From contig JAOZSV010000001.1 in assembly GCA_029939505.1 (NCBI GenBank), forward strand, positions 1-64,000: DNA of 64,000 nucleotides, read 5' to 3'. How positions within the stretch are numbered: the first letter of the stretch is position 1; each line of letters starts with the position of its first letter. Of this stretch, positions 23,301 through 51,717 are shown piece after piece. The notes below the pieces were generated by a model that did no database searches, was not told the DNA's origin, and saw only the letters and a program-made list of their open reading frames with translations. The DNA comes from Thiotrichaceae bacterium. GTDB lineage: Bacteria; Pseudomonadota; Gammaproteobacteria; Beggiatoales; Beggiatoaceae. The position numbers and the translations under genes are program-made.

Positions 23301-24750
23301 CGCTGACGGGTTAGGGCAGTTGGGAGTGCGTGAGGCGGTTAAGCCGTTAATTCAATTGCTCAAAGACACTAATTGGAAAGTCCGCAGCAGTGCCGCTGAC
23401 GGGTTAGGGAAGTTGGGGGCGCGTGAAGCGGTTAAGCCATTAATTCAATTGCTCAAAGACGACGATGAAGATCTCCGCCTCAGTGCCGCAGATGGGTTAG
23501 TGCGATTGGGAACGTGTGAAGCGGTTAAGCCGTTAATCCAACTGCTCAAAGATACGGATGAAGATGTCCGCAGCAGTGCTGCCGACCTGTTAGGGAAGTT
23601 GGGGGCGCGTGAGGCGATTCAGCCTTTAAAGGTATTACTCAAAGAGGGTAATAAGGATGTCCGTTGGAGCGCGATTTCCGCTTTAACTCAATTAGGCGTT
23701 CACGAATTATCACAATTGAACAAAGAATTGACTACCTTGGAGAAACAATCTCACCACCAAAGTGCTTATCAACGTCAAAAATTGGCAGAAAAGATTGGAC
23801 AACTCTTTATAAAACAAAGTGTTAAATTACTCACGCCTTTACTTAAAGATAAACATTTGGGAGTAAAAAAACAAGCGATTATTTCATTGGGACAAATTGG
23901 TGAGCAGCAAGCGAAGTGGTTACGCCCCGTTTTACCTCAAATGCGCCCCTTGTTAGAAGACACTAATATCCACATTCGCCGAGAAACGATTATCGCACTG
24001 GGAAAAATGGTTTCCCAACTTTCTGAGGAAAAAACGCAATGGCTCGAAACCTTTGCTAATATGGCTAAAAATCAAGAAGAAATTCTGGGTATTCGTCTGG
24101 TTGCCCTAAAAGCCTTAGCAAAGTTAGGCACTGCGGCGGAACTTATCCTTGAACTGCTGCAACCAGAAATGCTTGAACAAGAGAGCGATTCTTTTATCTT
24201 AACCGCCTTTACTGCATTAGGCGATATTCGTAATCCAGTTGCTTTAGATTTTCTGCATGAACAACTAGCGGCTTTAACAGAACGTAAACGAGTGTGGCGC
24301 GAACAACGGGATGCAGATAAATTAACGCGAACCCAAGACGATGTCGCTTCAAACGTGGACGATGAAGAAAATAGGTGGTTACAAAGCCAATGGGAAACTG
24401 ACTTAGGTTATGCGATAGCCCAAATCGATCCTGAAAGTTCAGGAATAGCATTACTGAAACACGAACTGGCTCAAGTGAGAAAAGGGGCATGGCTGGCAAT
24501 CGCTAAAGTTGGAAAGGTGAATATTATCAATGAGTTAATAACACAACTCCGTGAAAGTGAACCCGAACAAGCCCATTTTCGCCATGCCGCTTATCAGGCA
24601 ATAGATAATGCCCTGATGACCATTGAAATGCAAGGCAATGCACAAGATTTACTGTACTTAAAAAAATTGTTTAAAACGGTGAAACAGGCGGGGATTAAAG
24701 ATCGGATGAACTGGACGATTCTCTCTTTAAAACAGCGCATCAACGAATAA
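20398..24750 (+). CDS. nSTAND1 NTPase with long HEAT array (copy B)
   Basis: Paralogue of the 9365 gene with the same order: nSTAND1 NTPase (EPYKGLRPYEEQD, Walker A AASGVGKSS, Walker B PLVIILDQFEEFF), a winged-helix-like segment, one transmembrane helix (about residues 395-413), then HEAT repeats. The regular 31-residue HEAT array has about 17 copies here against four in copy A, which accounts for almost all of the length difference (1450 against 1073 residues). N- and C-terminal parts align closely. It ends at KQRINE, which is probably the original C-terminus. The likely role, by analogy with STAND proteins, is recognition through the superhelix and ATP-driven assembly at the membrane; the ligand and the effector partner are unknown, with the trypsin-SIR2 protein the obvious candidate. 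Confidence 0.88.
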   Translation: MEPYKGLRPYEEQDKDNFFGRNAEKQILIDKILTNKLTLLFAASGVGKSSLLQAAVMPQLKEPADENLDVIYHNQWFANPCADLKQTLVDYLQKHNKVTDQKTLDQSLPLATFFHFSTIFTSDPLVIILDQFEEFFNYQCHSKYFKPFIQQLAEAVLDRDTPTVFVFSMREDFALELNAFKPELPILLFNNFYRLEKLNQKKARQAITAPIEPLGFNYEPGLVDILLDDLSLREQRDRFGTATDLLDAPSFVEPPHLQIVCMQLWKLNQHNLSQRITIATYQKQGRATNILKDYFVKQVQQLSPQDKKLASAAFNYLVNKHGTKMAYPLGDLAKQIRVNETTLDQTLNKLEQARILRRQKRQNVLWYELYHDIFSKSIYDWNEDYKTRQRIKKVVIGTGAVFSSAALLFMGNDLWVNYTTYHLRLSLKTGISDTIEVYQGKQGSADIFRQQQFRYEVNSTRANIETDKLFQQKPIKKVAQLNQELIREFPLAERLEADWENGEIDKVLSFANQYIGKHNKDLSLQAIEQLAGFRSIKSIVRLKQLLPTQNKKVKVKIIEALGSSHAPRQLQIAHFLLPFTKDDEPYIRKSAADALAKLGTVEIIPSLIELLKDTDLTVYLSAENGLTQLGASEAIPPLIELLKNTETGIRSRAAHQLAQLGAHEAIPPLIELLKEIDIDVRSRAINGLAQLKAHEAVQPLIELLKDTDDDVRRSAVDGLGQLEAREAVQPLIQLLKDTNWEVRRSAADGLIQLGAREAIQPLMALLKDKHIDWKVRRRVADVLTQLGAHEAVKPLIEWLKDNDSNIRRHAAAGLGKLGMLEAVQPLIKSLKDTDLQVRSSAAVSLGQLGEREAVPPLMALLKDKNGPVSKSAVKGLAQLGAREAIPPLIALFKNKNLNWRVRRRAADVLAQLGAREAVQPLIELFQNTDSDVRRRAVAVWLGQFGSREAVKPLIKLLKNTNWKIRTSAADGLGQLGVREAVKPLIQLLKDTNWKVRSSAADGLGKLGAREAVKPLIQLLKDDDEDLRLSAADGLVRLGTCEAVKPLIQLLKDTDEDVRSSAADLLGKLGAREAIQPLKVLLKEGNKDVRWSAISALTQLGVHELSQLNKELTTLEKQSHHQSAYQRQKLAEKIGQLFIKQSVKLLTPLLKDKHLGVKKQAIISLGQIGEQQAKWLRPVLPQMRPLLEDTNIHIRRETIIALGKMVSQLSEEKTQWLETFANMAKNQEEILGIRLVALKALAKLGTAAELILELLQPEMLEQESDSFILTAFTALGDIRNPVALDFLHEQLAALTERKRVWREQRDADKLTRTQDDVASNVDDEENRWLQSQWETDLGYAIAQIDPESSGIALLKHELAQVRKGAWLAIAKVGKVNIINELITQLRESEPEQAHFRHAAYQAIDNALMTIEMQGNAQDLLYLKKLFKTVKQAGIKDRMNWTILSLKQRINE
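22140..23710 (+). repeat. 93-bp in-frame HEAT-repeat array
   Basis: About 17 units of roughly 93 bp each encode 31-residue HEAT repeats (VRSSAADGLGKLGAREAVKP type). Some units carry one or two extra codons. The corresponding array in copy A (about 11110-11460) has four. Confidence 0.9.
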
Positions 24751-36721: not shown

Positions 36722-39700
36722 TCATTGTTCAGGCAAGCTCAATGCAACAGGAAATTCAATCTTAAAAGTCACGCCTTTGTTGGGGCGACTTTCACAAGTC
36801 ATTGTACCATGTAACTGGCTAGTCACCAGATTATAACAAATATACAACCCCAATCCGGTTCCACCATGAGCGCGGTGGGTGGTAAAAAAGGGTTCAAACA
36901 CTTTTTCTAAGGCATCAGGGCTAATGCCTTTACCCGTGTCGGAATAGTTTATCAGCAAACGCTCGTCTTCTAAACGAATTGCGATTATAATACGCCCATT
37001 CTTCTTACCTTCTTCAAAACCATGTATCAAACTATTCATGATTAAGTTTGTCATAATCTGTTCTAACGTGCCCGGTACACTATAAATGTTCAAGTGTTCA
37101 AGACAATCCAGTTGAATTGAAATGGCAGTCTGTTTAAACTTATTATGTAGCGTGTTAATGACATCCTCAATGATGCTTTTAACATCAAAGCGCCTGATTT
37201 CTTCAGAAGTTTGATCAACGGCAGTTCGTTTAAAACGACTGATTAAGTCTGCCGCCCGTTTTAAGTTGGAGAGTGTCAATTTAGCTGCTTCATCAATCTT
37301 TTCCAGTGCCGAAACCAATTCTTCTTCATCGACTTCTTCGTTATCAAGCAATTTATTGACAAAGTTGGATTTTCTTTGTAAGACTGAAGCACTTCCCACT
37401 GCAACACCAATCGGCGTATTCACTTCATGGGCAAAACCGGCAACTAACCGCCCAAGTGAAGCCATTTTTTCGCTTTGTACTAATTCATTGCGCGTTTGGG
37501 TTAATTCTTCGACTTTATTATTCAATTGGGCAGTGCGCTCTCGTACCTTTTGTTCCTGAGTCTGATATAATAGCGCGTTTTCAATGGAAATCGCCGCTTG
37601 AGAGGAAAGTATTTCAAGTGTCTTGAGTCGCGCTTGCGTAAACGCGCCTTGAGTCACATTATTTTCTAAGTAAAGTATGCTAACCAGTTCACCTTGATGA
37701 ATAATAGGATGACATAGTACTGATTTGAGTTGATGTTGTTGAATGTAGCGATCTTCGGTATAAATGCCCTCTTGCATGGCATTGGCTAATACCACAAATT
37801 GATGGGTTCTCGCCACATAATTGACAATGGCGGTGGGCAAAGTTCCCTCGATAGAAAGTGAATGCAACAGGGTAACTTCATCAACGTTAAACGCGCCTTC
37901 AGCTTCAATGATCCATTCCCCATTCCCCTCTTCCTTTTTCAGAAGCAAACCCCGTTCTGCCCCAGCGTTTTCAATGAGGATGTGCATCATTCTTTTTAAA
38001 AGTTTGTTTAATACAATTTCACCAGACAGGGTTTGAGCGGCTTTTATCACGCTGTCTAAATCCAATAACGTGGAGGTGCTTTGACGATGTGAAGAAGTCA
38101 AAACGGTGGATTGCGCTATTGTGTGGGAAATAGGGATAAACTCTTCTGGTATGACTAGCCATTGCGGATATCTTTCCTCTAAATCCTTAACCTTAACGAT
38201 TGCGCCCCATTGTTGATAGGCATAATGAGCGTCACGCATATAGGTTTGGGCAATTTTCTCCATGCCTTCTCCCAAATAAAACTCTGCCGCTAATTCATAA
38301 GCTAAAGCTTCTTCTTGAAGGTATTCTTGTTTCTTTGCACCAGCAATGGCTTTTTCGTACAATTCAGCCGCACGCCATTTTTCACCAGAAATTCGCGCCC
38401 TTTCTGCTTCGACTAAATCATACTTATGTTGATAATTGCTCGGCGCGTGAGAAGCCCAAAATTGTAGTTGTTCTTGGTTGGCAGCGACTTTTTCGAGATA
38501 TTCTGCCGCCTGTTCTGCTGTTTCTGCTGTAGGATAGTTCGCCAAAAGGGCGAGAGAATAATAAAAAGATCCTTGCCCAAAGGGTAGCTCCGTGGCGATG
38601 TGTGGCTTACAATCAGCGGCTAAAGTGGCGTTAGCAAGTGCTTGTTCCTTGTCTTTCAGCAAGTAACTGAGAATCGTTTTTGCGAGATAAACCATTGCCA
38701 GCAAAAGTGTATTGTTGTCTTTTTGCAAAACAGGTAATATTTTTGTTTCATCAAAAACGTCGCCTACTAATTGCCGCTCCGTCGATTCTCCGCTTAAATT
38801 CAAAGCCAGTTGCGTCCATATACTGGCGTAGATGAGCTGAAACTCTTGTTTGAGATTCCGAATGAAACCAATATAAGGCATTTGTACCTTTATCACGTCT
38901 TCTAAAGGTTGTCCAATCAGGAAATAATTGGCGCAATAGTGCATTGCATTATAGCAAGCAAACTCGATATCCCCAATTTCCAAGGCGAATTGGATATTTT
39001 CGTGTAGTGGCGCGATAATTTCTTTGGCATGTTCTTTCCAATGTCTGATATGTACATTAAACATTGTGACAACGCGCACTTTGATTTTGGCATCAGGATA
39101 GCGTTCCAACAGTTGTAAAGCCAGTAAACCAAATTGATTACCCTTTTCTATATTCTTTTGAATTCCACATAAAATAGTACCATAAAAGGCATATCCGAAA
39201 GCAGACAGGTATGAGTTACCATAGTTGATAGAAAGTTCCATCATCGTAAAAACGACTTGCGGTAACCGTTTAGGGTTAACGATGAAAGTTGGTGCAAATA
39301 GATGCATTAATATCCGTTGCGCTGCCAATTTATCGGTAGCCGTCATGGCGGGTAAATGAATGAAGGCTGAAAGTTCACGGTTTTCAGGGGGCATTTTTAA
39401 TAGAGAAATATCAAGCATTTCAATAACTTGCAATCCTATATCCAGGGCAGCTTGTTGTTGGTTTTGAGCAGAATGAAACTGGATTCTGAACTCATAAACC
39501 TTGATTTTGTCTCGCACCGTTTTGGCTTGTTGCAACACAATATCAGAAAACGTCTCAGCTTCCTCGTAATTAATGTTTAAATAAAAGCTTTCAACGGATT
39601 CTACATAGAGATTAAGTGTCAAATCATATTCCGTTTCCCAACTGTCTTCCGACAAGAGTTTGCGCCCAACATTCAAATAGTTCACCGCAGCCTGATATGC

Positions 39701-41950
39701 TGTTGTCGCTTTCGCTTTTTTAGCCGCTTGTAAATTCAATTGGGCGATTTCGTTTTTCTCCTCTTGGCGACTCACCAATTCAATACTGAGGTTGAAATGA
39801 TCAACTATCTCGAAAAGGCTTTCTTCCCCGTCTTTTGAATTTGATAACAAATAACGCGCAATTTGCTGATGAATGGCAGGTTTCTCAGTCTCAGCCATCA
39901 AAGAATAAGCCGCTTGTTGGATGCGATCATGTTGGAATTTAAAACGAGCTGTTGCCTCCTTTAACTTATAGTTCTCATCCAATGGTAATAATAAGCCTTC
40001 TTCCACCGCATTCAAAAGGGGTGTCAAAATTTCAACAGGATGTTGATAGATTGTGGATAATAAAGCTAAATCAAATTCGTTGCCGATACAAGCGGCGAGC
40101 TTTAAAACAGTTTGCGTGTCGGCGGGAAACTGCTTTATTTTGTTTGCCATCAATTCAATCACATTGTCTGTCAAGTCAAGGGCGGCGATTTTTTTAATAT
40201 CCCATTGCCATTTTTGTTCTTTGAACTCAAAAACCAATAATTCCTTTTTATACAAGGACTTCAAAAACTCGTGAGTAAAAAAGGCATTGCCCTGTGTCTT
40301 TTCATAGACTAAATTTGTCAAAGGAAGAGCCTGATCTGAATGACAAATTAACGCTTCTGCAATTAATGTATTCACATCAGCAAGCGACAAGTTTTGTAAT
40401 TGAACAGTATTGACGATGGCTTTTTTTTGCAATTTTTCCAGCAGCATCATCAAAGGGTGAGTGGCATCAACTTCATTATCTCGATAAGCGCCGATGATGA
40501 AAAAATAGTGATGATTTGATTCAGCCATTAAGGTGAAAAGCAAATTTAAAGACGCTAAATCTGCCCATTGTAAATCATCTATAAACAGTATCAACGGATA
40601 ATCTTTTTGGCATAACACACGAAAAAAGTTTTGAAAAACCAGATTAAAACGGTTTTGCGCTTCTGAGGGCGCAATTTGTGCAACTGGCTGTTGTTTGCCA
40701 ATAATCAATTCTAATTGAGGAATCACATCAATTAAGACTTGCCCATTATTTCCCACCGCATTTAGGATTTTTTCCTGCCATTGGTTTAATTGGCTAACTG
40801 ATTCCGTTAATAAATAATTGCAAAATGCGTTAAAGGCTTGAGTTATGGCGAAATAGGGCAGATTGCGTTGATATTGATCAAATTTACCTGCTGCAAAATA
40901 GCCTCGTTTTTCAGTCATGGGTTTATGAACTTCATGCACCAAAGCCGTTTTGCCCACGCCAGAATAGCCAGCGATGAGCATCATTTCAGCCGCGCCCTGG
41001 CTGACGCGCTCAAAGGATTGCAATAAGATATTCACCTCATTTTCACGCCCATAAAGTTTTTGAGGGATTTTAAATTGATCTGAAAAATCGTTTTGGGCAA
41101 GTTGAAAGGAAAAATCAACGCTGTTTTCAAAATGTTGTTGGTTTTCTAAGCATTTCTCCAAATCTGCCTTAACACCAAAAGCCGATTGATAACGATCCTC
41201 CGCATTTTTCGCCATTAATTTCATCACGAGTTCAGAGATAATCTGTGGCACTTGAGTATTGACTTTATTAACAGGAACAGGTGTTTTGGCAATATGAGCA
41301 TGTACCAACTCTATTGCGTCTGTGGATTTAAAGGGCAATTCCCCTGTCAACATTTCATAGAAAGTGACTCCTAATGAATACAAATCTGTGCGATAATCTA
41401 TACAACGATTAATACGCCCAGTTTGTTCAGGGGATAAATAAGCTAATGTGCCTTCTAACTGTTCTGGATTTTTGAGGATGGGATTTTCACGCGATAGACG
41501 GCTTGCAATTCCAAAATCAATGATTTTTAATTGCTGGGTTGTTGAATTAGCCACAATATTGCTAGGGTTAATATCTTTGTGAATGATATTCGCCGCGTGA
41601 ATATTGCCCAAACTGTCAGCAATTTTGATGGCAAAGGGCAAAAATTCTTTGACTAAGGGGCGTTGTTCCATTAATTGTTTTAAGGAGTCGCCACCAAAAT
41701 CTTCTAAAACAATGAAGAGCGTATTTTGATATTTTTCAATATCATACGCCTTGATTACCCCAGCCAAATCAAAATTGCGAATGATTTCATACTCTTGCCG
41801 ATAACGGGTTAATTCTGCTGGCGTGGGATAGTCTTCTTTGAGCATTTTAAGGATAATGGGTTGATTATCCTCATTTCTGCGCCCACGATAGACGACAGAG
41901 TTGGCACTTTCATAAATGGGTTTTATAATATTGTAGTTAGAAATATTCAT
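36722..41950 (-). CDS. Ser/Thr kinase - AAA ATPase - GAF - histidine kinase giant signalling protein
   Basis: A 1742-residue cytoplasmic sensor. Residues about 7-265 form a Hanks-type kinase (Lys35, HKDINPSN with Asp126, DFG 145-147, GTLAYLSPEQTGR). A STAND/AAA_16-like ATPase follows (Walker A AGYSGVGKTAL, residues 327-337; Walker B YPLILFIDDLQWAD), then TPR-like helices to about 1290, a GAF domain (about 1320-1460), a coiled coil and a histidine kinase with H-box GFAHEVNTPIG, N-box NLIMNSLIHGFE, SDTGKGI, EPFFTT and GGTGLGLY near 1696. This architecture is known from cyanobacteria and Beggiatoa-like bacteria. No response regulator lies beside it. All key catalytic residues appear to be present. 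The stop codon lies in a dispersed repeat. Confidence 0.93.
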   Translation of the reverse strand: MNISNYNIIKPIYESANSVVYRGRRNEDNQPIILKMLKEDYPTPAELTRYRQEYEIIRNFDLAGVIKAYDIEKYQNTLFIVLEDFGGDSLKQLMEQRPLVKEFLPFAIKIADSLGNIHAANIIHKDINPSNIVANSTTQQLKIIDFGIASRLSRENPILKNPEQLEGTLAYLSPEQTGRINRCIDYRTDLYSLGVTFYEMLTGELPFKSTDAIELVHAHIAKTPVPVNKVNTQVPQIISELVMKLMAKNAEDRYQSAFGVKADLEKCLENQQHFENSVDFSFQLAQNDFSDQFKIPQKLYGRENEVNILLQSFERVSQGAAEMMLIAGYSGVGKTALVHEVHKPMTEKRGYFAAGKFDQYQRNLPYFAITQAFNAFCNYLLTESVSQLNQWQEKILNAVGNNGQVLIDVIPQLELIIGKQQPVAQIAPSEAQNRFNLVFQNFFRVLCQKDYPLILFIDDLQWADLASLNLLFTLMAESNHHYFFIIGAYRDNEVDATHPLMMLLEKLQKKAIVNTVQLQNLSLADVNTLIAEALICHSDQALPLTNLVYEKTQGNAFFTHEFLKSLYKKELLVFEFKEQKWQWDIKKIAALDLTDNVIELMANKIKQFPADTQTVLKLAACIGNEFDLALLSTIYQHPVEILTPLLNAVEEGLLLPLDENYKLKEATARFKFQHDRIQQAAYSLMAETEKPAIHQQIARYLLSNSKDGEESLFEIVDHFNLSIELVSRQEEKNEIAQLNLQAAKKAKATTAYQAAVNYLNVGRKLLSEDSWETEYDLTLNLYVESVESFYLNINYEEAETFSDIVLQQAKTVRDKIKVYEFRIQFHSAQNQQQAALDIGLQVIEMLDISLLKMPPENRELSAFIHLPAMTATDKLAAQRILMHLFAPTFIVNPKRLPQVVFTMMELSINYGNSYLSAFGYAFYGTILCGIQKNIEKGNQFGLLALQLLERYPDAKIKVRVVTMFNVHIRHWKEHAKEIIAPLHENIQFALEIGDIEFACYNAMHYCANYFLIGQPLEDVIKVQMPYIGFIRNLKQEFQLIYASIWTQLALNLSGESTERQLVGDVFDETKILPVLQKDNNTLLLAMVYLAKTILSYLLKDKEQALANATLAADCKPHIATELPFGQGSFYYSLALLANYPTAETAEQAAEYLEKVAANQEQLQFWASHAPSNYQHKYDLVEAERARISGEKWRAAELYEKAIAGAKKQEYLQEEALAYELAAEFYLGEGMEKIAQTYMRDAHYAYQQWGAIVKVKDLEERYPQWLVIPEEFIPISHTIAQSTVLTSSHRQSTSTLLDLDSVIKAAQTLSGEIVLNKLLKRMMHILIENAGAERGLLLKKEEGNGEWIIEAEGAFNVDEVTLLHSLSIEGTLPTAIVNYVARTHQFVVLANAMQEGIYTEDRYIQQHQLKSVLCHPIIHQGELVSILYLENNVTQGAFTQARLKTLEILSSQAAISIENALLYQTQEQKVRERTAQLNNKVEELTQTRNELVQSEKMASLGRLVAGFAHEVNTPIGVAVGSASVLQRKSNFVNKLLDNEEVDEEELVSALEKIDEAAKLTLSNLKRAADLISRFKRTAVDQTSEEIRRFDVKSIIEDVINTLHNKFKQTAISIQLDCLEHLNIYSVPGTLEQIMTNLIMNSLIHGFEEGKKNGRIIIAIRLEDERLLINYSDTGKGISPDALEKVFEPFFTTHRAHGGTGLGLYICYNLVTSQLHGTMTCESRPNKGVTFKIEFPVALSLPEQ

Positions 41951-42209: not shown

Positions 42210-42530
42210 ATGGAAGACACCCTAAAGCGTTTGCTTAGAGCAGAAACTGATGCAGAGCAATTAGTGACTAAAGCGCAGACGGAACGTGAAGACATTATTC
42301 AACAAGCCTTACAAGAGGTGCGTCAAGCGGAGGAGCAATTTAAAGCGAAAATCCCTGAATTACATGCCCGCTTTTTAGAAAAGGCTAAAGTACGTGCTAC
42401 CCAAACAATCGCCGAATTAAATAAGCGTTACGATGAGCGAAAAGAGCGTTTACATCATCTCGCTGAGGAAAATCACCAAAGGGCGTTAGAGGCCGCTGTC
42501 CATTTACTCATGTCTTCAGGTAAACCATGA
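42210..42530 (+). CDS. V-type ATPase subunit G/H-like peripheral stalk protein
   Basis: A 106-residue, almost wholly helical coiled-coil protein (EDTLKRLLRAETDAEQLVTK, LEKAKVRATQTIAELNKRYD) of the subunit G/H type, which forms the peripheral stalk of prokaryotic V/A-type ATPases. The Shine-Dalgarno AAGGAG is well placed. The stop overlaps the start of the next gene (ATGA), and the pairing with subunit C supports the call. The sequence alone would not be decisive. Confidence 0.75.
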   Translation: MEDTLKRLLRAETDAEQLVTKAQTEREDIIQQALQEVRQAEEQFKAKIPELHARFLEKAKVRATQTIAELNKRYDERKERLHHLAEENHQRALEAAVHLLMSSGKP

Positions 42531-43513
42531 TGATGAATTATGCTTATCTTAATGCCCGTGTATCAATACTCGCAGGGCGTTTGCTTTCAGAAAAACGCTT
42601 CACTGAATTATCAAATCAACCGCTGGATGCTTTAGCAGCAAAGGGCGGTAGTGAATGGGAAGATTTAGGGCTTGGTGATAGTAGCGTTGATCAGACTTTA
42701 ATAGAACAAGCCTGGTTAATCCGACTATTAACAGATTTTAAAACGTTAGTACGCCCATTATCGGGGGCAGAACGAGAATTGCTCATGTATTGGTTTCATA
42801 AACACGATATTGCCAATCTCAAAACCATTGTGCGCGGCAAAATTGCAGGGCTAGATGCAGAGGCGATTTCTACCCAATTATTAGAATTAGGAACACTGAC
42901 TGCTTTGCCAATTAAACAATTACTACGCACAGAAGAAGTCGGTGAACTACTACGACATTTGGAAAACAGCCCTTATGGTAATATTGCACATCAAGCGCGG
43001 CGCGTATTTGAAAAGGAACATCAACTTTATTCATTAGACGCTGCAATTGATCGGCATTACCTATTAGGATTTGTACAAAGAGTTCGCGTCCTTGACAATA
43101 AGCAACGCCAAAGTTTATCGCCGCTTATTAGTATTTTCATGGATCGCTTTAATTTATTATGGTTACTACGCTATCGGTTTGCCTATCACTTATCGGCAGC
43201 AGAAACCTATTACTTATTAGTTCCCGCAACTTACAGGCTTAATCGCAGTCGTTTGCAGAGCTTGGTGGAATTAAATTCTTTAGAAGAAGTGCTTGACAAC
43301 TTGCAGGAACCCTTCTATAGTTTATTATCAGAAGCAGAAAATACTTTTATCGTTGATCAGCGGCTTATAAAAGAAATGCGACGAATTGCTGAACTGACTT
43401 TGAAATTGCGAAGTTTTACTTTAGCAAAAGTGTTTGCTTATGTCTTATTGCGGGAAATGGAAATGCAGCGAGTGATGGCGATTATTAAAGGCAAACGGTT
43501 AAATTTAATGTAA
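42527..43513 (+). CDS. V-type ATPase subunit C (AC39/d family)
   Basis: A 328-residue helical protein of the V-type ATPase subunit C/d (AC39) family, which links the rotating central stalk to the membrane ring. Family features include YAYLNARVSILAGRLLSEKR at the start, a middle FHKHDIANLKTIVRGKIAGL segment and the C-terminal LREMEMQRVMAIIKGKRLNL. The gene begins with ATGATGATG overlapping the preceding stop. The remaining subunits (I, K, E, A, B, D) normally follow in such operons but here a repeat-rich region and opposite-strand genes follow, so the operon is cut short or split. Confidence 0.88.
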   Translation: MMMNYAYLNARVSILAGRLLSEKRFTELSNQPLDALAAKGGSEWEDLGLGDSSVDQTLIEQAWLIRLLTDFKTLVRPLSGAERELLMYWFHKHDIANLKTIVRGKIAGLDAEAISTQLLELGTLTALPIKQLLRTEEVGELLRHLENSPYGNIAHQARRVFEKEHQLYSLDAAIDRHYLLGFVQRVRVLDNKQRQSLSPLISIFMDRFNLLWLLRYRFAYHLSAAETYYLLVPATYRLNRSRLQSLVELNSLEEVLDNLQEPFYSLLSEAENTFIVDQRLIKEMRRIAELTLKLRSFTLAKVFAYVLLREMEMQRVMAIIKGKRLNLM

Positions 43514-43876: not shown

Positions 43877-46255
43877 CTAATAAACATTAAAGAATATAAA
43901 AATGACCGTGATGAGGACTATAGCCGGATAGCTAATCCTGCCAATGCGATTAATCAGTTTCATGCGTTTATCGTCCTTTTCATGAATGTGCATGATAACC
44001 ACTAATGCCAGCGAATACACGGCTAAGAAATAAATTAAGTAAAACACATATTCCAGCATGGTAAAATAGGGCAATGTAGGCAATTCTGAAGATAATCGGA
44101 TATGCAAGATAGAAGTGGGTAAGATTAGATTAGCCCCCAACGCAACTTTAGTGTTAAAGGTATTAATATAAAATATGCCATATCCCATTAGAATTAACAA
44201 AATGGTGGGAAAGAGATTTTTCCAAAAAAAACTCACAACATACCGTTTAATTTCAATCACCACATTTAAGCGCGAATATTTTAGCTTATGTTGTGAATGA
44301 AAAAATTTGGTCATACCAAACGTAGAATCCGTTTCTTTAATATTTTCAAAAAACGAAAGGTTATTAATCTGCCAGCCATGAATATAAAAGACATTGTTTC
44401 TTTTGAGTTTTTCTATGTGGGTACCGATTCGCATTCCTTGACTATCTACGGCAAAAATCAAGCTATCGCGGGTTTTGTTTTTGTGCCGCAATTGGAGAGG
44501 TAACACTTGATTATCCAACGGATAATGATGAAAATCAAAGTTACCTTTGAAAAGTGCTTTGACGCGATAAATTTCGGTGATGGTGCGTTCGTCAAACTTG
44601 ACCGAAAAATTTTCCTCAATATCCGGTTTTTCCAGTGTGCCATCCGTCGGATTCACTATATTGACAAACTCAATGAGTTGCCCCCCAAAACGACCTGAAG
44701 GATTATCTACCTTATCGTTATCGGGTTTGAAACGAAACCAAATATAAAAATCAAGCATATAAATGGCTTCCTTGGTATCAAGTTGACTGATATCATTGAA
44801 TTCAAAACCGACATAAACAACCTCGGCTTTCCGCCGGAATTGACCATTGATTTTGAGCAAACGTTCCTCAAAAACGTCAGCTAGCGTTTCTTTTAGTATC
44901 TTTGGGGTCATTTTGGGCACGGTCCAAGTTCGGGGCCAGTATTGATACCAAGCTACTGTTGGTTTGCCGTTTTCAAAAACGCCTATGGGTATTTGTTTAT
45001 CAGTATCTCCATTTTTATCAAAAAATATTGGGCCAGTTACACCATCCACGGCGTAATTGTGGTCGGAAAAACGCCATAAATTTTCTTTTAGCCGTTCTCG
45101 TTTTTCGCTTAAATTCCCCTTTGGCGTTTGTGCTAATAGTGCCTGAAGAACAACTCGCGCGGCATCATAATAAATAACAGCGGTTGTTGAAGGATCATTA
45201 TTATAGGTTTTAATGAATGCCCGTTTGAAATGGCTAGCCGTTGTCGAAGGCGTATTCTCATTACCGTATTGTTCAATAAAAGCTTGTTTGAAATCAACGG
45301 CACGTTTACCGGCTAAATCAGAGAGAAATGGTGTTGTCAGATAAACACCATCCGTATAATAGCCCGGTTGATATGTTTCTTTTATTTCTCCTTTTATTTT
45401 GTCGGCAAATGTTTTGCTGGAAAGCGCATCTGCGCCAATGATTGGAATATCAACAACCCGCTTGTGTTTCAGATGGATGAGCGTTTGTGCCGCTTCGTTT
45501 GAATGGGTCGCCAAAAATAGAATAGAATTTTCCGCTTTGTCTTTCAAAACTTGAGTCATTTTTGCGCGGCTTTGGTTGAAACTGTTTGGATTGTTTGAGG
45601 TAAAACCCCATTGTTCTTGAATCTTTAAACCAATCGTTCTGGCACTAAAAACAAAAGCGTCTTTGAGGCTTGAACCGTAAGCATCCTCGTCAAATAAAAT
45701 ATAGGCTTTGTCATAACCAAGAACGTTATGTACATAATTAGCCACCAACGCTCCTTGGCTAGTGTTATTGAAAATAACGCGGAAATACCAGTCGTTTCCC
45801 ACGGTCAATTTATCAGCAGTAGCTGAACCGGTCACTGCCGGTATGCCATGTTGTTTGTAAACGTCAGCCGCTGCTAAAGAAGCATCGCTGGCATAATGGC
45901 CAATCACCGCAACGGCTTTCCCGTTGACAATTTCCGCCGCTTTTTCTTTTGCCAGATTTGGATCGTTGTTATCATCAAATTTGAGCAATTCTATCCGCTG
46001 GCCATGAATGTGACTCTCACGGTTGATTTTTTTTAGTGCCAATTGAACCCCTTGGACCATCGCTTCACCATTAGGAGTACTCATTGGTCCTACCACAGCA
46101 ACATAAAGCGTTTCTTTGGGAAATAAATAGGTTTTCCACAGAAAAATACCTGATGAACTGACTAATAAAATAATTGCAGCAAGTATCAGGTAAAACTGTT
46201 TTTTACCCCGTTTTTGAGGCGATGAAATAGCTGTTTTTTCAGGTTGTTCAGACAT
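43877..46255 (-). CDS. Periplasmic binding protein fused to a pentameric ligand-gated ion channel
   Basis: A 792-residue receptor channel. After a cytoplasmic N-terminus and one transmembrane helix (about residues 21-40) comes a type I periplasmic binding domain of the Leu/branched-chain amino-acid class (YVAVVGPMSTPNGEAMVQGV, AVIGHYASDASLAAADVY, AVTGSATADKLT; about 50-430). It is followed by a Cys-loop-family ligand-binding beta sandwich (about 455-670) with the Pro-loop FHHYPLDNQVLPLQL that lacks the flanking cysteines, as in prokaryotic members, and by four membrane helices: M1 NLFPTILLILMGYGIFYI, pore-lining M2 ALGANLILPTSILHIRLS followed by SELP, M3 FTMLEYVFYLIYFLAVYS and M4 at the C-terminus. 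Related fusions have been noted in surveys of bacterial channels, but none is characterised in depth to my knowledge. Downstream of an OppA-like gene on the same strand. Confidence 0.9.
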   Translation of the reverse strand: MSEQPEKTAISSPQKRGKKQFYLILAAIILLVSSSGIFLWKTYLFPKETLYVAVVGPMSTPNGEAMVQGVQLALKKINRESHIHGQRIELLKFDDNNDPNLAKEKAAEIVNGKAVAVIGHYASDASLAAADVYKQHGIPAVTGSATADKLTVGNDWYFRVIFNNTSQGALVANYVHNVLGYDKAYILFDEDAYGSSLKDAFVFSARTIGLKIQEQWGFTSNNPNSFNQSRAKMTQVLKDKAENSILFLATHSNEAAQTLIHLKHKRVVDIPIIGADALSSKTFADKIKGEIKETYQPGYYTDGVYLTTPFLSDLAGKRAVDFKQAFIEQYGNENTPSTTASHFKRAFIKTYNNDPSTTAVIYYDAARVVLQALLAQTPKGNLSEKRERLKENLWRFSDHNYAVDGVTGPIFFDKNGDTDKQIPIGVFENGKPTVAWYQYWPRTWTVPKMTPKILKETLADVFEERLLKINGQFRRKAEVVYVGFEFNDISQLDTKEAIYMLDFYIWFRFKPDNDKVDNPSGRFGGQLIEFVNIVNPTDGTLEKPDIEENFSVKFDERTITEIYRVKALFKGNFDFHHYPLDNQVLPLQLRHKNKTRDSLIFAVDSQGMRIGTHIEKLKRNNVFYIHGWQINNLSFFENIKETDSTFGMTKFFHSQHKLKYSRLNVVIEIKRYVVSFFWKNLFPTILLILMGYGIFYINTFNTKVALGANLILPTSILHIRLSSELPTLPYFTMLEYVFYLIYFLAVYSLALVVIMHIHEKDDKRMKLINRIGRISYPAIVLITVIFIFFNVY

Positions 46256-46375: not shown

Positions 46376-48049
46376 TTAATTTTCTAGGTACCAATGACGA
46401 ATATGTTGTCCACCAAAGGCCATGCTATACCAGCCTTTGACCCAAGGTTTGACTAAAAGGCGCGTTGTCGCAAAATAAACTGGGACAATTGCCGTTTCTT
46501 CTTCAGTAAGAATTTGTTCCGCTCGGTGGTAAAATTGTTTGCGTTCTTCGGGATTAGCACCTTGTTGGGCTTTTTCTACCGCTTCAGCAAATTCAGGATT
46601 ATCCCAAATCCAGTGAAAGAAACCTTTATTGGGATGGAATACGTCGTAGAGCCAGTTATTGGCATCGGGATAGTCTGCCGTCCAAGCCATCCTGAAAATA
46701 TGGGTGGTATCTTGTTCAATCGCTTTTAGGTAGTCACCTGGCCAATCTTGATTCACGATTTCTATCTCAATTCCCAAATGATGTTTCAGCATTTCTTGGG
46801 TGGCTAGGGCAATATTCTGAAAATCTTCCGAAGTACTATATAGGAGACGCACTTTAGGAAAATTTTTACCTTCTGGATAACCCGCTTCTGCTAACCAAGC
46901 CCGCGCTTGTTTAGGATTAAATGGAATTCCCATGAATTCCTCTTTTGGATCAATGGCACCAAAAATCGGGGGACGAGTAAAAGTAGTCGCAGGTGAATTA
47001 ACCCCCCAAATAATAAAATCATTCAAGGCTTGTTTATCAATAGCCGCTGCAATAGCTTTGCGAACGAATGGATTATCCATCGGGGGATTTTTAGTGTTAA
47101 AGCTGAAAAACTCAGTCATAAAATTTGCACTCGTCTGGACTTCCTTACGCAAAATGATGTCAGAAAGAATGCGGGGAATTTCCATCTGGGGCAAAGGCAG
47201 ATATTGTCCGCCTAACATATCAAGGTCACCTTTTTCATACATAGCAAGGGCCAATACGCTGTCAGGAATTATCTGATATTCCACTTTTGGAAGTTTGACT
47301 TTATCCGCATCATAGTAATACGGATTTTTGGTCAATATGAGTTTATCACCTTTGTTCCATTCGGTTAATTGATAAGAACCGCTAGTTTGAATATGTTCAG
47401 GTTCGGTCCACTTGTCACCATATTGTTCAATCACCTTACGCGGCAAAGGGCGATAAGTCCACAGACTGGCTAAAGCCGGAAAATAACCAATTGGATATTC
47501 AAGCGTAAATTCTACTCTATAGTCATCTAGCGCACGAACCCCAAGGGGAGGTAAGGTTTCAGGTTGTTTCTCTTTCTTTTTACTATGAGGTTCGGCATTT
47601 TTAAGAGCCAGAAGCGTAGCGAATGAAGGTGCGCCAGTCTCATATTTCAGATTACGTTGAATGGCCCATACCACATCATGAGCGGTAACCGGTTCTCCAT
47701 GAGACCATTTCGCATCCTGCCTGAGATGGAAAGTATAAATAGTGCCTTCTTGGTTCACTTCCCAATGGGTTGCCAATTCTGGGACAACTTCATAAGTTTT
47801 GGGATCAAAATCGGTTAAGCCTAAAAACAACTGCTCAACAATTTCAATACTATGATTTTCAATAGTTAACCCCGGATCAATCGTTGCAACCGGGTCTTGA
47901 AATGGTATCCGTAAATAGCCGGCGTGTGATTTCTGCGCCACTGGCGAATCAGTGTCAGCCTCTTGTAATTCACAACCGCTTAGTAGCAAAAATATCCAAA
48001 CCAAACTGATGAAAATAAGAGAGTTGAATCGTAGCATGTTTTTATTCAT
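46376..48049 (-). CDS. OppA-like peptide-binding lipoprotein
   Basis: ABC-type solute-binding protein of family 5 (SBP_bac_5: oligopeptides, nickel, heme and others). I choose Met at 48049 (MNKNMLRFNSLIF) rather than 48100, because it gives a normal signal peptide with lipobox LLLSGC. The mature protein shows the family marks: FQDPVATIDPGLTIENHSIE, WSHGEPVTAHDVVWAIQR near residue 130, and a C-terminal EEETAIVPVYFATTRLLVKP. No permease or ATPase genes are adjacent, so it is either an orphan binding protein or serves a transporter elsewhere. It precedes the channel fusion gene by about 120 bp on the same strand, so the two may be co-transcribed, although a hairpin lies between. Confidence 0.9.
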   Translation of the reverse strand: MNKNMLRFNSLIFISLVWIFLLLSGCELQEADTDSPVAQKSHAGYLRIPFQDPVATIDPGLTIENHSIEIVEQLFLGLTDFDPKTYEVVPELATHWEVNQEGTIYTFHLRQDAKWSHGEPVTAHDVVWAIQRNLKYETGAPSFATLLALKNAEPHSKKKEKQPETLPPLGVRALDDYRVEFTLEYPIGYFPALASLWTYRPLPRKVIEQYGDKWTEPEHIQTSGSYQLTEWNKGDKLILTKNPYYYDADKVKLPKVEYQIIPDSVLALAMYEKGDLDMLGGQYLPLPQMEIPRILSDIILRKEVQTSANFMTEFFSFNTKNPPMDNPFVRKAIAAAIDKQALNDFIIWGVNSPATTFTRPPIFGAIDPKEEFMGIPFNPKQARAWLAEAGYPEGKNFPKVRLLYSTSEDFQNIALATQEMLKHHLGIEIEIVNQDWPGDYLKAIEQDTTHIFRMAWTADYPDANNWLYDVFHPNKGFFHWIWDNPEFAEAVEKAQQGANPEERKQFYHRAEQILTEEETAIVPVYFATTRLLVKPWVKGWYSMAFGGQHIRHWYLEN

Positions 48050-48099
48050 ATAAATTTCTCTGAAGTTCCAACAAAGATTATAGACGTTCAGATAATTCA

Positions 48100-48221
48100 C
48101 AGGGCGAACAGTTCGCCCCTATATGACAATCGTATATGTCATAAATTGTATGGGCATATATAAGTGTCTGCCCTTGTGTTCGAGGCTTACAGTTTGTTGA
48201 AGAAAACTGTAAGCCTCGATC
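48100..48221. repeat. Hairpins upstream of the OppA-like gene
   Basis: GGGCGAACAGTTCGCCC and TATGACAATCGTATATGTCATA are followed by TTCGAGGCTTACAGT..ACTGTAAGCCTCGA (48179-48220). The last is a member of the CGAGG hairpin family with its own stem sequence. Confidence 0.85.
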
Positions 48222-48291: not shown

Positions 48292-51200
48292 TTAAGGTAT
48301 TGAAATAAGCGGAAAATTTCTAACCGCCCGTGGAATAGCCACCGTTGGCGTTTGTTGGCCTTCTGTCAGTTCTTCTACGCCATCCGACAAATACAAATCG
48401 ATTTCCTTAAAAGAAATCTCCTTATCACCTTTATAGTCCGCTTCCCCTCTGAAGCCTTCCAATAATATTTTGGTAAATGCACCATTGCCCCAATCAGGAC
48501 TCTCAAGGGCCAATTGTTCACCCGTTGTGGCCGTTAAAACGACAATGGCCTCTCTTTCTGCACTCCCTAAATCATTAGTGACCTCATCTACGTCAATGAG
48601 TCCATCGCCCATGACATTACCTGAATGACAAGTATCCAGAAAGAATAAAACTTTACCTGGTAAATTCATCACCGTCTTTTTAATATCGCGGAAAAAAACA
48701 CTTGAACCCTTAATTTCGGTTTCCGTTTTCACTTTAGCATCACGCGGCAAGAAAAAATATTGCTGTTTACTATCGCTTCCATGTCCACCTATATTAACGC
48801 CGTGCCCTGCTATAAATAACATAGCCACATCGCCTAATTGGACTTGACTTTGTAACCAAGCAAGGCCATCAAGTACTTCTTTTTTGCTGGCATCTAGCAA
48901 CTTTTTGATGGTCACCTCCTTATATAACTTGCCTTTTTGATTTTGGAGGGCGTTAGCAAAATCATTGGCATCTTTGGCCGCAAAATTTAGGGTGAGTTCT
49001 TTGTTATCATATTTACTCACACCAACTGCCAGCACATAAAGATTTGGTTGCGGTTTTTCGGTCACTTTCCCCGTCCACTGTAACTCAATCGCAAGGGGTT
49101 GAGAAGTGACAAAACTATTTTCAACCACCAAACCAAATTTTACATCTCGCGGCGGTAACGATACTCGCAGATGATATTCCTTTTCATCTTTAGGCAATTG
49201 ACAAAAAGAGGTACTTACATCACGACTAGCAACGTTACTAATGCCACGACTGGCAACATTACTAATTCCGCGACTGGCGACGTTACTAATTCCGCGTGTT
49301 TGTTGCGATAAATCACAAATTTCAATTGGTTTACTCGCATCGTCAGAATTCTTATTTTTGATACTTCCTATTTTCTGCCCATCAACCAGTACTTGGAGGC
49401 CTGTGATAGGTTCCCCGGAAGGTAAACGGAGACTATAACGTAATTCTACCACTGACGTAGCGAAAGAGGCCTTTTTGCTACCGCTACTAACTACCCCACT
49501 GACACCACGACTAACCACCCCACTGATGCCACGGCTGGCTACATTACTAATCCCACGAGTTTCAGTTTTGGCATGTGGATCTGGTTCGACTAATGCTAAC
49601 ATCTCAATTTCTGGCGGTAATGATTCTTGCAGCGTTGGTTTAGGAGATTGGGCTGAAGATTTTTCCCTAGGAGACGGTGATGAAGATTTTTTGTTCAGCA
49701 GTCGCCTAGAAGATTGGGATGATGTTTTTTGAGATTGTCCTTTTTTAACCGGTTGTTTGGCCTGCAATTTTTTAATTTTCGGCAGAATTGAAGAGCGCGT
49801 GGCTTCCGCTAATTTTAAATTGTCCACTAATTTATCCACCACTTCAGGTGAATAATGGCGCTTCAGGGATTGTTTAAAAGTTTGCTTCAGGCGATTTATT
49901 TCATCTGCCAATAAGATCGCTTCATCAATATCATAGAGCATTAATGTGTTTTTTACTATCTGCGGACTATAAAGGTTTCTAAATTTACTGAGGGGAAAAA
50001 ATTGTGCCGCTTCAGTCTGCCCACGATTGACATACCAACCCATTATGTTTTCACCACCTGCCGAGGCCATATAATGGGATCGCGGTGTCCATATAATCCA
50101 GCGTTCGTCATAAGGAAAATAGGCTAATAATTCGGCACCATCAGAGATTCGGTACCAACGTAAAATTCCATCGCTAAATGCAGCGACGGCAACTTTCCCA
50201 TTCCCCGCAATCTTGACATCCCAAGGAATAGCGGGTGCGGTTTGTTGCCATTTGAGTTGGCCTTTTCTATCTAATAATCGTAACGACCAATCGGTTCCCA
50301 CCAAAATATGTTGTTCATTTTTGGTAATGGCAAAGCTGCGAACCATTTCGTCTGGCTGAAGCTGTAACAGTTTACCATTGATTTTAAAATCGGTGGTGTT
50401 TATCTCACCAGTAATATCGAAATAGGACGAATTAATAATTGGGATCGTCATAGATGGCTGTCGTTTGTCCAGAGGTTTAACAGCAACAAGGCTCCGATCA
50501 CGCACGGAAAAACGTCTGGGGCGTTTTTGGTCCCCTTGGTTATAATTAAATTCAATCTGACTTCCATCCATAGAAATTTGTAAACCTTTATCATAACGGA
50601 AATCAGCAATACGGAAATCAGCAGTTCCGGCATCACGTTCTAATATTTTGTCCCCATTAGCATTAAAACGTCCAAAAGTCGGTTCAAAGGTACCAAACAC
50701 AAGTCCCCCATCTCGCAAAGCCCGAATATCCATGATCGTATTTGAGGCCGCGGGCCATTTGTCGTAGCGACTTTGGTCTGCTTGATTCCAACGTAAAATA
50801 AACGTTTGATTGTTTTCCAAATGTGTGCCACCTGCATAGAGCCACTGTCCATCTTTAGACCACGCAACCGTGTTCAAATTACCATTCACACCCAATGTCT
50901 GTGGTTCAGATAAAAGAGTCAAGTCCATACCGAACAAAACATTGATGGTATTAGAATCCGCAAACCCCACCACAATTTTATTACCTGTGGGGGAAAAATC
51001 GACAGAAAATGGTTTATTGCCACCGGGTGCTTTGCGTTTCGCCAATAATTTGAAATTTTGATCATAGAGACGCAGATAACCATCCCAACAACTTGTCACT
51101 AAACGTCCTTGCTGATCAAAATTGGCCCAATAAGTCGCATCACCATAGTCAGTATCCAGCGCATGCAAATGATAATCAGAAGTGCGATAGACTCGGATGC

Positions 51201-51717
51201 CTTGTTGGCCTAAATTAGCCACCAAATAATGCCCATCCGGAGAATAAGCCAAATGAAAAATCAAATTGGGATGTCCAGGAAGACGTTGATTCATTTCACC
51301 CGTTTTGCGATTAAACAAGTAAATTGAATAGGTGCCTTCCAAAGTTTGTCCCGTCCATCCACCGGCAGCCACCGTTTCACCATCTGGTGAAATAGCCACC
51401 GCGTGAATTTTACCTTCATTACCTTTATCAATGGGTGGACGTAAAATTTGGATGAGTTTACCATTATCTAAAGACCAAACCCGCACCGTCTTATCCAACG
51501 AACCCGTGACTAAATAACGTTCATTGGAATCTACATCAATGCGTTTGATCACTTCAGTATGCATTCCCGTTTCTGGACGAAAAAAAGCCTTATTTAGGTT
51601 GTTAACCTCCGCAAAAGCGGATAAGGCAGGAAAGCCAAATAAGCACAAACTTATAAACACTTGGCCAAATCTTAATATGGCAATTTGGCGTTTAAAATGG
51701 CGCATTAGAAATAACAT
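48292..51717 (-). CDS. Secreted WD40-repeat protein with caspase (C14) domain
   Basis: An 1141-residue orthocaspase-type protein. The ORF start is at 51717, but Met5 (MRHFKRQ, 51705) gives a better signal peptide that ends near PALSAFA, so export to the periplasm is expected. Residues about 50-560 form WD40-type blades (IDVNSNERYLVTGSLDKTVRV in slightly varied form, HAVAISPDGETVAAG). A low-complexity linker (about 640-730) follows, including two arrays of RGISNVAS octads that flank an 80-residue beta domain. The C-terminal caspase begins at LYVLAVGVSKYDN, with His972 in FIAGHG and Cys1030 in FLDTCHSGN, so the dyad is complete. Multiple metacaspases are reported in large sulfur bacteria. An exported caspase is unusual and suggests an extracytoplasmic stress or signalling role. 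Confidence 0.92.
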   Translation of the reverse strand: MLFLMRHFKRQIAILRFGQVFISLCLFGFPALSAFAEVNNLNKAFFRPETGMHTEVIKRIDVDSNERYLVTGSLDKTVRVWSLDNGKLIQILRPPIDKGNEGKIHAVAISPDGETVAAGGWTGQTLEGTYSIYLFNRKTGEMNQRLPGHPNLIFHLAYSPDGHYLVANLGQQGIRVYRTSDYHLHALDTDYGDATYWANFDQQGRLVTSCWDGYLRLYDQNFKLLAKRKAPGGNKPFSVDFSPTGNKIVVGFADSNTINVLFGMDLTLLSEPQTLGVNGNLNTVAWSKDGQWLYAGGTHLENNQTFILRWNQADQSRYDKWPAASNTIMDIRALRDGGLVFGTFEPTFGRFNANGDKILERDAGTADFRIADFRYDKGLQISMDGSQIEFNYNQGDQKRPRRFSVRDRSLVAVKPLDKRQPSMTIPIINSSYFDITGEINTTDFKINGKLLQLQPDEMVRSFAITKNEQHILVGTDWSLRLLDRKGQLKWQQTAPAIPWDVKIAGNGKVAVAAFSDGILRWYRISDGAELLAYFPYDERWIIWTPRSHYMASAGGENIMGWYVNRGQTEAAQFFPLSKFRNLYSPQIVKNTLMLYDIDEAILLADEINRLKQTFKQSLKRHYSPEVVDKLVDNLKLAEATRSSILPKIKKLQAKQPVKKGQSQKTSSQSSRRLLNKKSSSPSPREKSSAQSPKPTLQESLPPEIEMLALVEPDPHAKTETRGISNVASRGISGVVSRGVSGVVSSGSKKASFATSVVELRYSLRLPSGEPITGLQVLVDGQKIGSIKNKNSDDASKPIEICDLSQQTRGISNVASRGISNVASRGISNVASRDVSTSFCQLPKDEKEYHLRVSLPPRDVKFGLVVENSFVTSQPLAIELQWTGKVTEKPQPNLYVLAVGVSKYDNKELTLNFAAKDANDFANALQNQKGKLYKEVTIKKLLDASKKEVLDGLAWLQSQVQLGDVAMLFIAGHGVNIGGHGSDSKQQYFFLPRDAKVKTETEIKGSSVFFRDIKKTVMNLPGKVLFFLDTCHSGNVMGDGLIDVDEVTNDLGSAEREAIVVLTATTGEQLALESPDWGNGAFTKILLEGFRGEADYKGDKEISFKEIDLYLSDGVEELTEGQQTPTVAIPRAVRNFPLISIP
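49221..49560 (-). repeat. Two 24-bp in-frame tandem arrays (RGISNVAS) in the caspase gene
   Basis: At 49221-49298 and 49481-49560, 24-bp units encode RGISNVAS or close variants (RGISGVVS, RGVSGVVS). The two arrays lie on each side of a short beta-rich domain. They differ mainly at third codon positions. Confidence 0.92.

Follow-up and report, generated by a model that had tools for sequence, protein, structure and literature searches.

The window, by which we mean the whole 64,000-nucleotide stretch analysed here, comes from a relative of the giant sulfur bacteria. One 792-aa ORF on its minus strand starts with ATG and is read from 46255 down to 43877. Taken together, Pfam, phmmer, AlphaFold and Foldseek show that its product joins a periplasmic binding domain (PBP) to a Cys-loop-type (Pro-loop) receptor extracellular domain (ECD) and the four-helix transmembrane domain (TMD) of a pentameric ligand-gated channel (pLGIC), as the sequence-only reading had proposed. 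From the N-terminus, the predicted receptor-channel subunit comprises a signal anchor or TM0 (residues 17–44; 46124–46207), a LIVBP/LivJ-type binding domain located by Pfam, alignment and Foldseek (residues 47–441; 44933–46117), an ECD located by phmmer, alignment and Foldseek (residues 463–671; 44243–44869), and helices M1 (673–696; 44168–44239), M2, the pore helix (700–724; 44084–44158), M3 (733–757; 43985–44059) and M4 (762–791; 43883–43972), all four taken from the AlphaFold model. Family alignment identifies the Pro-loop FHHYPLDNQ (residues 575–583; 44507–44533) and a pre-M1 arginine, Arg671 (44243–44245). This loop, and the SELP that follows M2, had been picked out earlier and are both present.

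The AlphaFold model, computed with 44 aligned homologues (mean pLDDT 83.4, pTM 0.82), shows an N-terminal helix at residues 17–44, a two-lobed PBP, a β-sandwich ECD and four transmembrane helices. By the positive-inside rule, the basic stretch KRGKK ahead of the first helix favours an N-terminus inside and a periplasmic PBP, in line with the anchor and topology suggested earlier, and by pLGIC topology the C-terminus past M4 would likewise be periplasmic.

Directly upstream on the same strand (46376–48100, minus), across a gap of 120 bp, lies the OppA-type gene that had also been noticed from the sequence; its product matches SBP_bac_5 (E 1.5e-85) and has a lipobox, LLSGC. Elsewhere in the window are genes for V-type ATPase G-like and C/AC39 subunits (42210–43513, plus), convergent with the channel gene; WD40 repeats plus a caspase-like Peptidase_C14, with low-complexity RGISNVAS/RGISGVVS repeat units between (48292–51717, minus); a 1742-aa Ser/Thr kinase–AAA–GAF–histidine kinase hybrid (36722–41950, minus); and a 1450-aa nSTAND1–HEAT protein (20398–24750, plus).

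In the binding domain, Peripla_BP_6 covers residues 52–417 (Pfam, E 2.7e-34), the first half of the protein matches LivJ/LIVBP among PDB sequences (phmmer), and Foldseek aligns the model with LivJ 4gnr at a TM-score of 0.89 of target. Both the two-lobed fold and the α-group site of the LIVBP group of type I PBPs can be recognized: in alignments, S123 and T146 fall on LIVBP S79 and T102, which bind the α-carboxylate and α-amino group of the ligand (1z15–1z18/1usg), and D276 falls on an acidic residue of 4gnr. LivJ and GLIC are among the Foldseek matches of the model, and none of the matches listed is a solved chain spanning both the PBP and the channel part.

For the channel part, the earlier reading had looked to the Pfam families Neur_chan_LBD and Neur_chan_memb. 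The former gave no match in the window protein, and the latter matched residues 682–766 below its cut-off (E 5.2e-4, 20.8 bits against 28.1), so this test nearly failed a true case. Comparison with GLIC, also proposed at that stage, gave a clear result: phmmer against PDB sequences aligns GLIC with residues 528–789 (E 7.6e-14), and Foldseek aligns 334 columns of the model (E 8.5e-19, TM 0.77 of GLIC). The protein also matches NCBIfam LGIC_1 (E 3.1e-9). Pfam was rejected as sole arbiter, as Neur_chan_LBD detects just 9 of 44 pLGIC types and none of 50 of the MscS-pore relatives described below. When the five ECDs of the same genome were used as a profile against PDB sequences, the outcome was at most suggestive: the best E was 0.2, and all matches were GLIC or GLIC chimeras.

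AlphaFold, Foldseek and phmmer thus concur on a β-sandwich ECD followed by four transmembrane helices. The proline of the β6–β7 loop has been described as the only absolutely conserved residue of Pro-loop receptors (PMC4795631), and Pro579 occupies this position within FHHYPLDNQ. Based on an ungapped match to GLIC made by hand, M2 has N at –2′, K at 0′, A at 2′, N at 6′, L at 9′, I at 13′ and R at 17′. Leu at 9′ corresponds to the hydrophobic gate of an M2-lined pore, and this position is hydrophobic in nearly all of the 44 relatives. Basic residues occupy 0′ in 33/44 and 17′ in 37/44, and the commonest residues at –2′ include no acidic one. This charge pattern would point, if anything, away from the signature typical of cation channels.

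How does this protein compare with known systems? Fusions of PBP-I to pLGICs (ART-LGICs) were reported by Tasneem et al. 2004 (PMC549065), for example in Magnetospirillum and Bradyrhizobium, together with Cache/MCP-N fusions and PBP-II genes conserved in the neighbourhood. The window gene resembles these in its N-terminal PBP-I, Pro-loop ECD, four transmembrane segments and separate PBP-II gene next door. It is well supported as a new member of an already known kind, in keeping with the earlier remark that such fusions appear in surveys. The 2004 set is without the MscS pores, cNMP domains, C-terminal SBPs, NTPase variants and Beggiatoaceae expansion described below, and the term 'MscS' is absent from the text of PMC549065. 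The basic architecture is not new; what appears to be new, and could not be seen from the sequence of the window, is that this PBP+ECD unit also occurs on MscS pores.

GLIC, from Gloeobacter, is the best channel match of the window protein and shares its ECD–TMD fold, Pro-loop and M2 pattern, but it lacks a PBP, is proton-gated, and has Glu at –2′, where the window protein has Asn. DeCLIC (Desulfofustis), another pLGIC from a prokaryote, also carries an additional N-terminal domain (NTD) in the periplasm, although this domain consists of two jelly-roll lobes rather than a PBP, and Ca2+ depletion activates the channel (PMC9897478, PMC12664993). The DeCLIC papers describe NTD-bearing pLGICs as little studied (PMC9897478, PMC12664993); Jaiteh et al. 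2016 discarded the ends of the sequences and state that associations with such domains are known at the genome level only. Ionotropic glutamate receptors are similar in concept only: they too place a PBP-type domain on a ligand-gated channel, but their tetrameric pore is unrelated and resembles that of K+ channels, and they have a second ligand-binding domain, of the PBP-II type.

The genome that contains the window has five PBP+ECD genes, counting the window gene. One of the others (L002, 788 aa) also has SBP_bac_5 upstream, another (L003, 1190 aa) bears a C-terminal SBP_bac_1 domain (E 4.7e-31), and the remaining two (L005 and L004/L009) lie in tandem on one contig and have an MscS pore, the second with an added cNMP-binding domain. 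A scan of GTDB contigs yielded 79 family loci, mostly from Candidatus Parabeggiatoa, Thiomargarita, Thioploca and Halobeggiatoa, with the remainder from Desulfobacterota (among them Desulfonema magnum and Electrothrix), Leptospiraceae and a single Anaerolineaceae. In the order to which the window belongs, all of one family, 33 of 43 genomes carry a family match, with up to 16 in one genome. A class-wide draw of 369 genomes gave 12 that match at 1e-10, 4 from the window's family and 8 from other families. Spread by viruses was considered and rejected, as a scan of viral contigs found no relatives.

After deduplication, the set comprised 162 ECD genes. These include 47 PBP-ECD-TMD genes plus six divergent ones identified by eye, 10 PBP-ECD-TMD-SBP_bac_1 genes, and 86 unique genes with an MscS pore, 44 of them PBP-ECD-MscS and 42 PBP-ECD-MscS-cNMP. 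A few are without a PBP (L211, L219), and one has an NTPase (L058). The SBP_bac_1 domain sits past M4, on the periplasmic side, and the cNMP domain past MscS, on the cytoplasmic side; as judged from predicted topology, every added domain would fall on the correct side of the membrane.

Several variants deserve mention in their own right. A second, different SBP (SBP_bac_1) is fused past M4 of a PBP-pLGIC in L003 (G000:C152), L017, L018 and L077, and also in a Chloroflexota MAG, such that the channel is sandwiched between two binding proteins; at L133 (G029:C248), three PBP-ECD-TMD genes, two with SBP_bac_1, form a recently duplicated 15-kb array. In L058 (3166–6537, Candidatus Parabeggiatoa HSG14, 1124 aa), PBP and ECD are followed by one or two transmembrane helices and a C-terminal P-loop NTPase (AAA_22, STAND/NACHT-like), suggestive of a sensor module with a non-channel output. 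The same genome as the window also encodes a 657-aa dCache-TM-pLGIC (L008/L225, G000:C131), and L213 has a 697-aa dCache-pLGIC followed by a short 369-aa pLGIC, where a heteromer is possible. L211 (3931–6249) and L219 (3027–4559) consist of a signal peptide, ECD and MscS, one with a cNMP domain, and would represent minimal Pro-loop-ECD/MscS chimeras.

In the MscS types, the pLGIC pore is replaced by an MscS-family pore at the ECD/M1 border. One concern is circularity, in that a profile built from mixed pore types could create the apparent ECD homology. We rejected this explanation because a profile made from pLGIC-type ECDs only still matches 86/86 MscS-type ECDs (median 1e-53, worst E 2.5e-23), with 0.087 the best value for shuffled or reversed controls. 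A structural model based on MscS-type sequences alone matches MscS/YnaI (Foldseek, 4.6e-14) as well as a GABA-A chimera, ELIC, GluCl and the alpha7 nAChR (about 1e-8); its pTM is low (0.42), so it should not be used to judge how ECD and pore are placed relative to each other. The junction hardly varies in position: in most genes, the MscS profile starts 1–5 residues past the end of the ECD. All 50 scanned MscS types contain MS_channel_2nd, the β domain that with TM3 marks the MscS superfamily. They have an MscS pore in place of the four-helix TMD of pLGICs, and the Pro-loop proline in just 3/84. By their domain content, then, they are not pLGICs but carriers of a pLGIC ECD. Compared with MscS and bCNG-type channels, they share the MscS β domain, about half with a cNMP-binding domain (phosphate cassette motif kept in 39/43), but have in addition the periplasmic PBP and Pro-loop ECD.

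No report of such an addition to MscS or bCNG-type channels was found in the open-licence literature, and searches there for MscS fused to Cys-loop, pLGIC or PBP returned nothing relevant; since only open-licence papers were covered, this absence is weak, and the arrangement appears to be undescribed. The failure of Neur_chan_LBD to detect MscS-type ECDs may be why these chimeras have gone unreported.

Phylogeny of the ECD points to a single pore swap. In a 150-row tree, pore type changes once, with the MscS types on one side of a branch of SH-aLRT 99. In a careful 50-row tree, rooted on two long outgroup rows, the MscS clade (support 100/99) is nested within the pLGIC types and adjoins the SBP_bac_1-bearing pLGIC lineage. 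Across this swap, residues at the ECD–pore interface were largely lost. The Pro-loop proline (P579) is found in 61/62 pLGIC types versus 3/84 MscS types, and the corresponding fractions are 52/62 versus 1/86 for F575, 55/62 versus 5/86 for D581, 52/62 versus 2/86 for Q583, and 61/62 versus 2/86 for the pre-M1 R671. In pLGIC types, conservation reaches ≥75% in 48 ECD columns, eight of which belong to the Pro-loop or pre-M1 stretches; five of these eight are lost in MscS types, versus 3 of the 40 elsewhere (Fisher p = 0.0015, a descriptive value, as columns are not independent, the event is single, and the interface stretches were picked from general knowledge of pLGIC structure). Residues of the ECD core, namely R508, D604, S661, W506 and H591, are kept in both pore types.

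The binding domain may have a partly different history. In pLGIC types, S123 is conserved in 50/52 PBPs, T146 in 48/52 and D276 in 43/52. MscS-type PBPs retain the serine (77/80), while T146 drifts (41/80) and the position of D276 varies (S32/D24/T13), so the ligands of the two groups probably differ. The PBP tree, which has long branches and a simple model, requires four pore-type changes, at least three of them on supported branches. Taken at face value, this suggests that PBP and ECD have not always been inherited together, and exchange of PBPs between pore types is possible.

Gene neighbourhoods also distinguish the two pore types. Of the pLGIC-type genes with enough flank to be counted, 26/47 are immediately preceded by an SBP_bac_5 gene on the same strand, often overlapping or ≤20 bp apart, versus 1/75 MscS-type genes; about 20 of the 47 are without one, as are all eight pLGIC types bearing a fused SBP_bac_1. 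Lipobox-like signals occur in 20/24 of the upstream SBPs, so that most are predicted lipoproteins. The conserved linkage supports the nutrient-sensing pair that had been raised as a possibility and that, along with the architecture and topology, is the portion of the earlier interpretation supported here. MscS-type genes are arranged as tandem pairs, MscS then MscS-cNMP, with an ECD gene directly downstream in 14/37. Tandem pairs of PBP-pLGIC genes in Desulfobacterota suggest that heteromers may form. Also in Desulfobacterota, the PBP-pLGIC genes at L084 and L095 adjoin a separate MscS-family (MscK-like) gene, possibly a hint of how the MscS fusion arose.

The explanation we favour, with somewhat better than even confidence, is that the window gene encodes a PBP-gated Pro-loop channel subunit with an OppA-like partner, and that the PBP+ECD block moved once to MscS. 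The product would assemble, alone or with other subunits, into a pentameric inner-membrane channel, with the LIVBP-type domain tethered atop each ECD on the periplasmic side. An amino-acid-like solute would close the PBP cleft and thereby move the ECD; this motion would then be relayed to M2 through the Pro-loop and pre-M1 Arg, such that the pore opens or closes. Retention of the amino-acid-binding Ser/Thr positions makes it plausible that the PBP acts as a second ligand sensor gating the channel. A second solute, such as a peptide, would probably be delivered or signalled by the OppA-family lipoprotein. An alternative, which we regard as distinctly less likely though worth serious thought, is that gating starts at the ECD itself, with protons, Ca2+ or a small amine as the trigger (compare GLIC, DeCLIC and ELIC), and that the PBP is just a modulatory or stabilising accessory. 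The NTD of DeCLIC modulates gating and does not drive it (PMC9897478, PMC12664993), and the ECD core that is strongly conserved in both pore types (R508, D604, S661) could form a separate ligand site. Yet an accessory role does not readily account for maintenance of the amino-acid-site positions in the PBP, or for the fact that the PBP stays with the ECD across the pore swap in nearly all copies.

Both binding domains come from ABC-importer families, which raises the question of whether the protein is instead a receptor for substrate-loaded SBP, or an importer, with the PBP and OppA-like SBP feeding transport and ion flux secondary or absent. We consider this improbable: no BPD_transp_1 permease is encoded on the window's 113-kb contig (the ten matches in the genome are all elsewhere), the pore helix pattern is channel-like, and the SBP is linked to pLGIC-type and not MscS-type genes. 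Finally, most of the genomes are draft MAGs, and the window's own is in 497 contigs, so one might ask whether assembly errors fused separate genes, either in the window or in the MscS chimeras. Identical junctions recur in dozens of genomes and species, including the complete Desulfonema magnum NZ_CP061800.1 and G040 (one 4.81 Mb contig), the position of the ECD–MscS junction mostly varies by no more than a few residues, and the MscS types form one clade. The fusion recurs in about 60 other PBP-ECD-TMD genes, some of which lie on complete chromosomes, which settles the doubt voiced earlier about merged genes, and we rejected the artefact as exceedingly improbable.

Within the favoured explanation, the PBP+ECD unit would have moved once, en bloc, from a pentameric to an MscS-type pore, after which the Pro-loop/Arg machinery decayed, so coupling in MscS types would have to work differently. 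We put at even chances the broader proposal that PBP and Cys-loop ECD constitute a portable ligand-sensing module, whose transfer to an unrelated, normally heptameric pore gave rise to MscS channels that are gated by solutes and, in half the cases, regulated by cyclic nucleotides, and that dispense with the Pro-loop/pre-M1 Arg coupling regarded as essential in this receptor family. MscS assembles as a heptamer and pLGICs as pentamers, and these chimeras raise the question of how an ECD of five-fold symmetry is accommodated on a seven-fold pore.

How ECD motion is transferred to the pore in Cys-loop receptors has been asked for a long time, and the usual approach has been to engineer chimeras between related channels. 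About 86 natural chimeras with an unrelated pore are now available for this purpose. Residues lost once the pore had been exchanged (F/P/D/Q of the Pro-loop and the pre-M1 Arg) would mark pLGIC-specific coupling, while those retained would mark the ECD's own role or its role toward the PBP. The hosts are mostly filamentous, which would fit a role in chemotactic gliding or in membrane-potential signalling along filaments, although this is speculation; Desulfonema is a reported gene-transfer partner among filamentous gliders (PMC6390638). The biological role of prokaryotic Pro-loop channels has been called unknown for all of them (PMC4795631), and the large filamentous sulfur bacteria, in which the family is so widespread and, in one genome, so abundant, may be the place to seek it.
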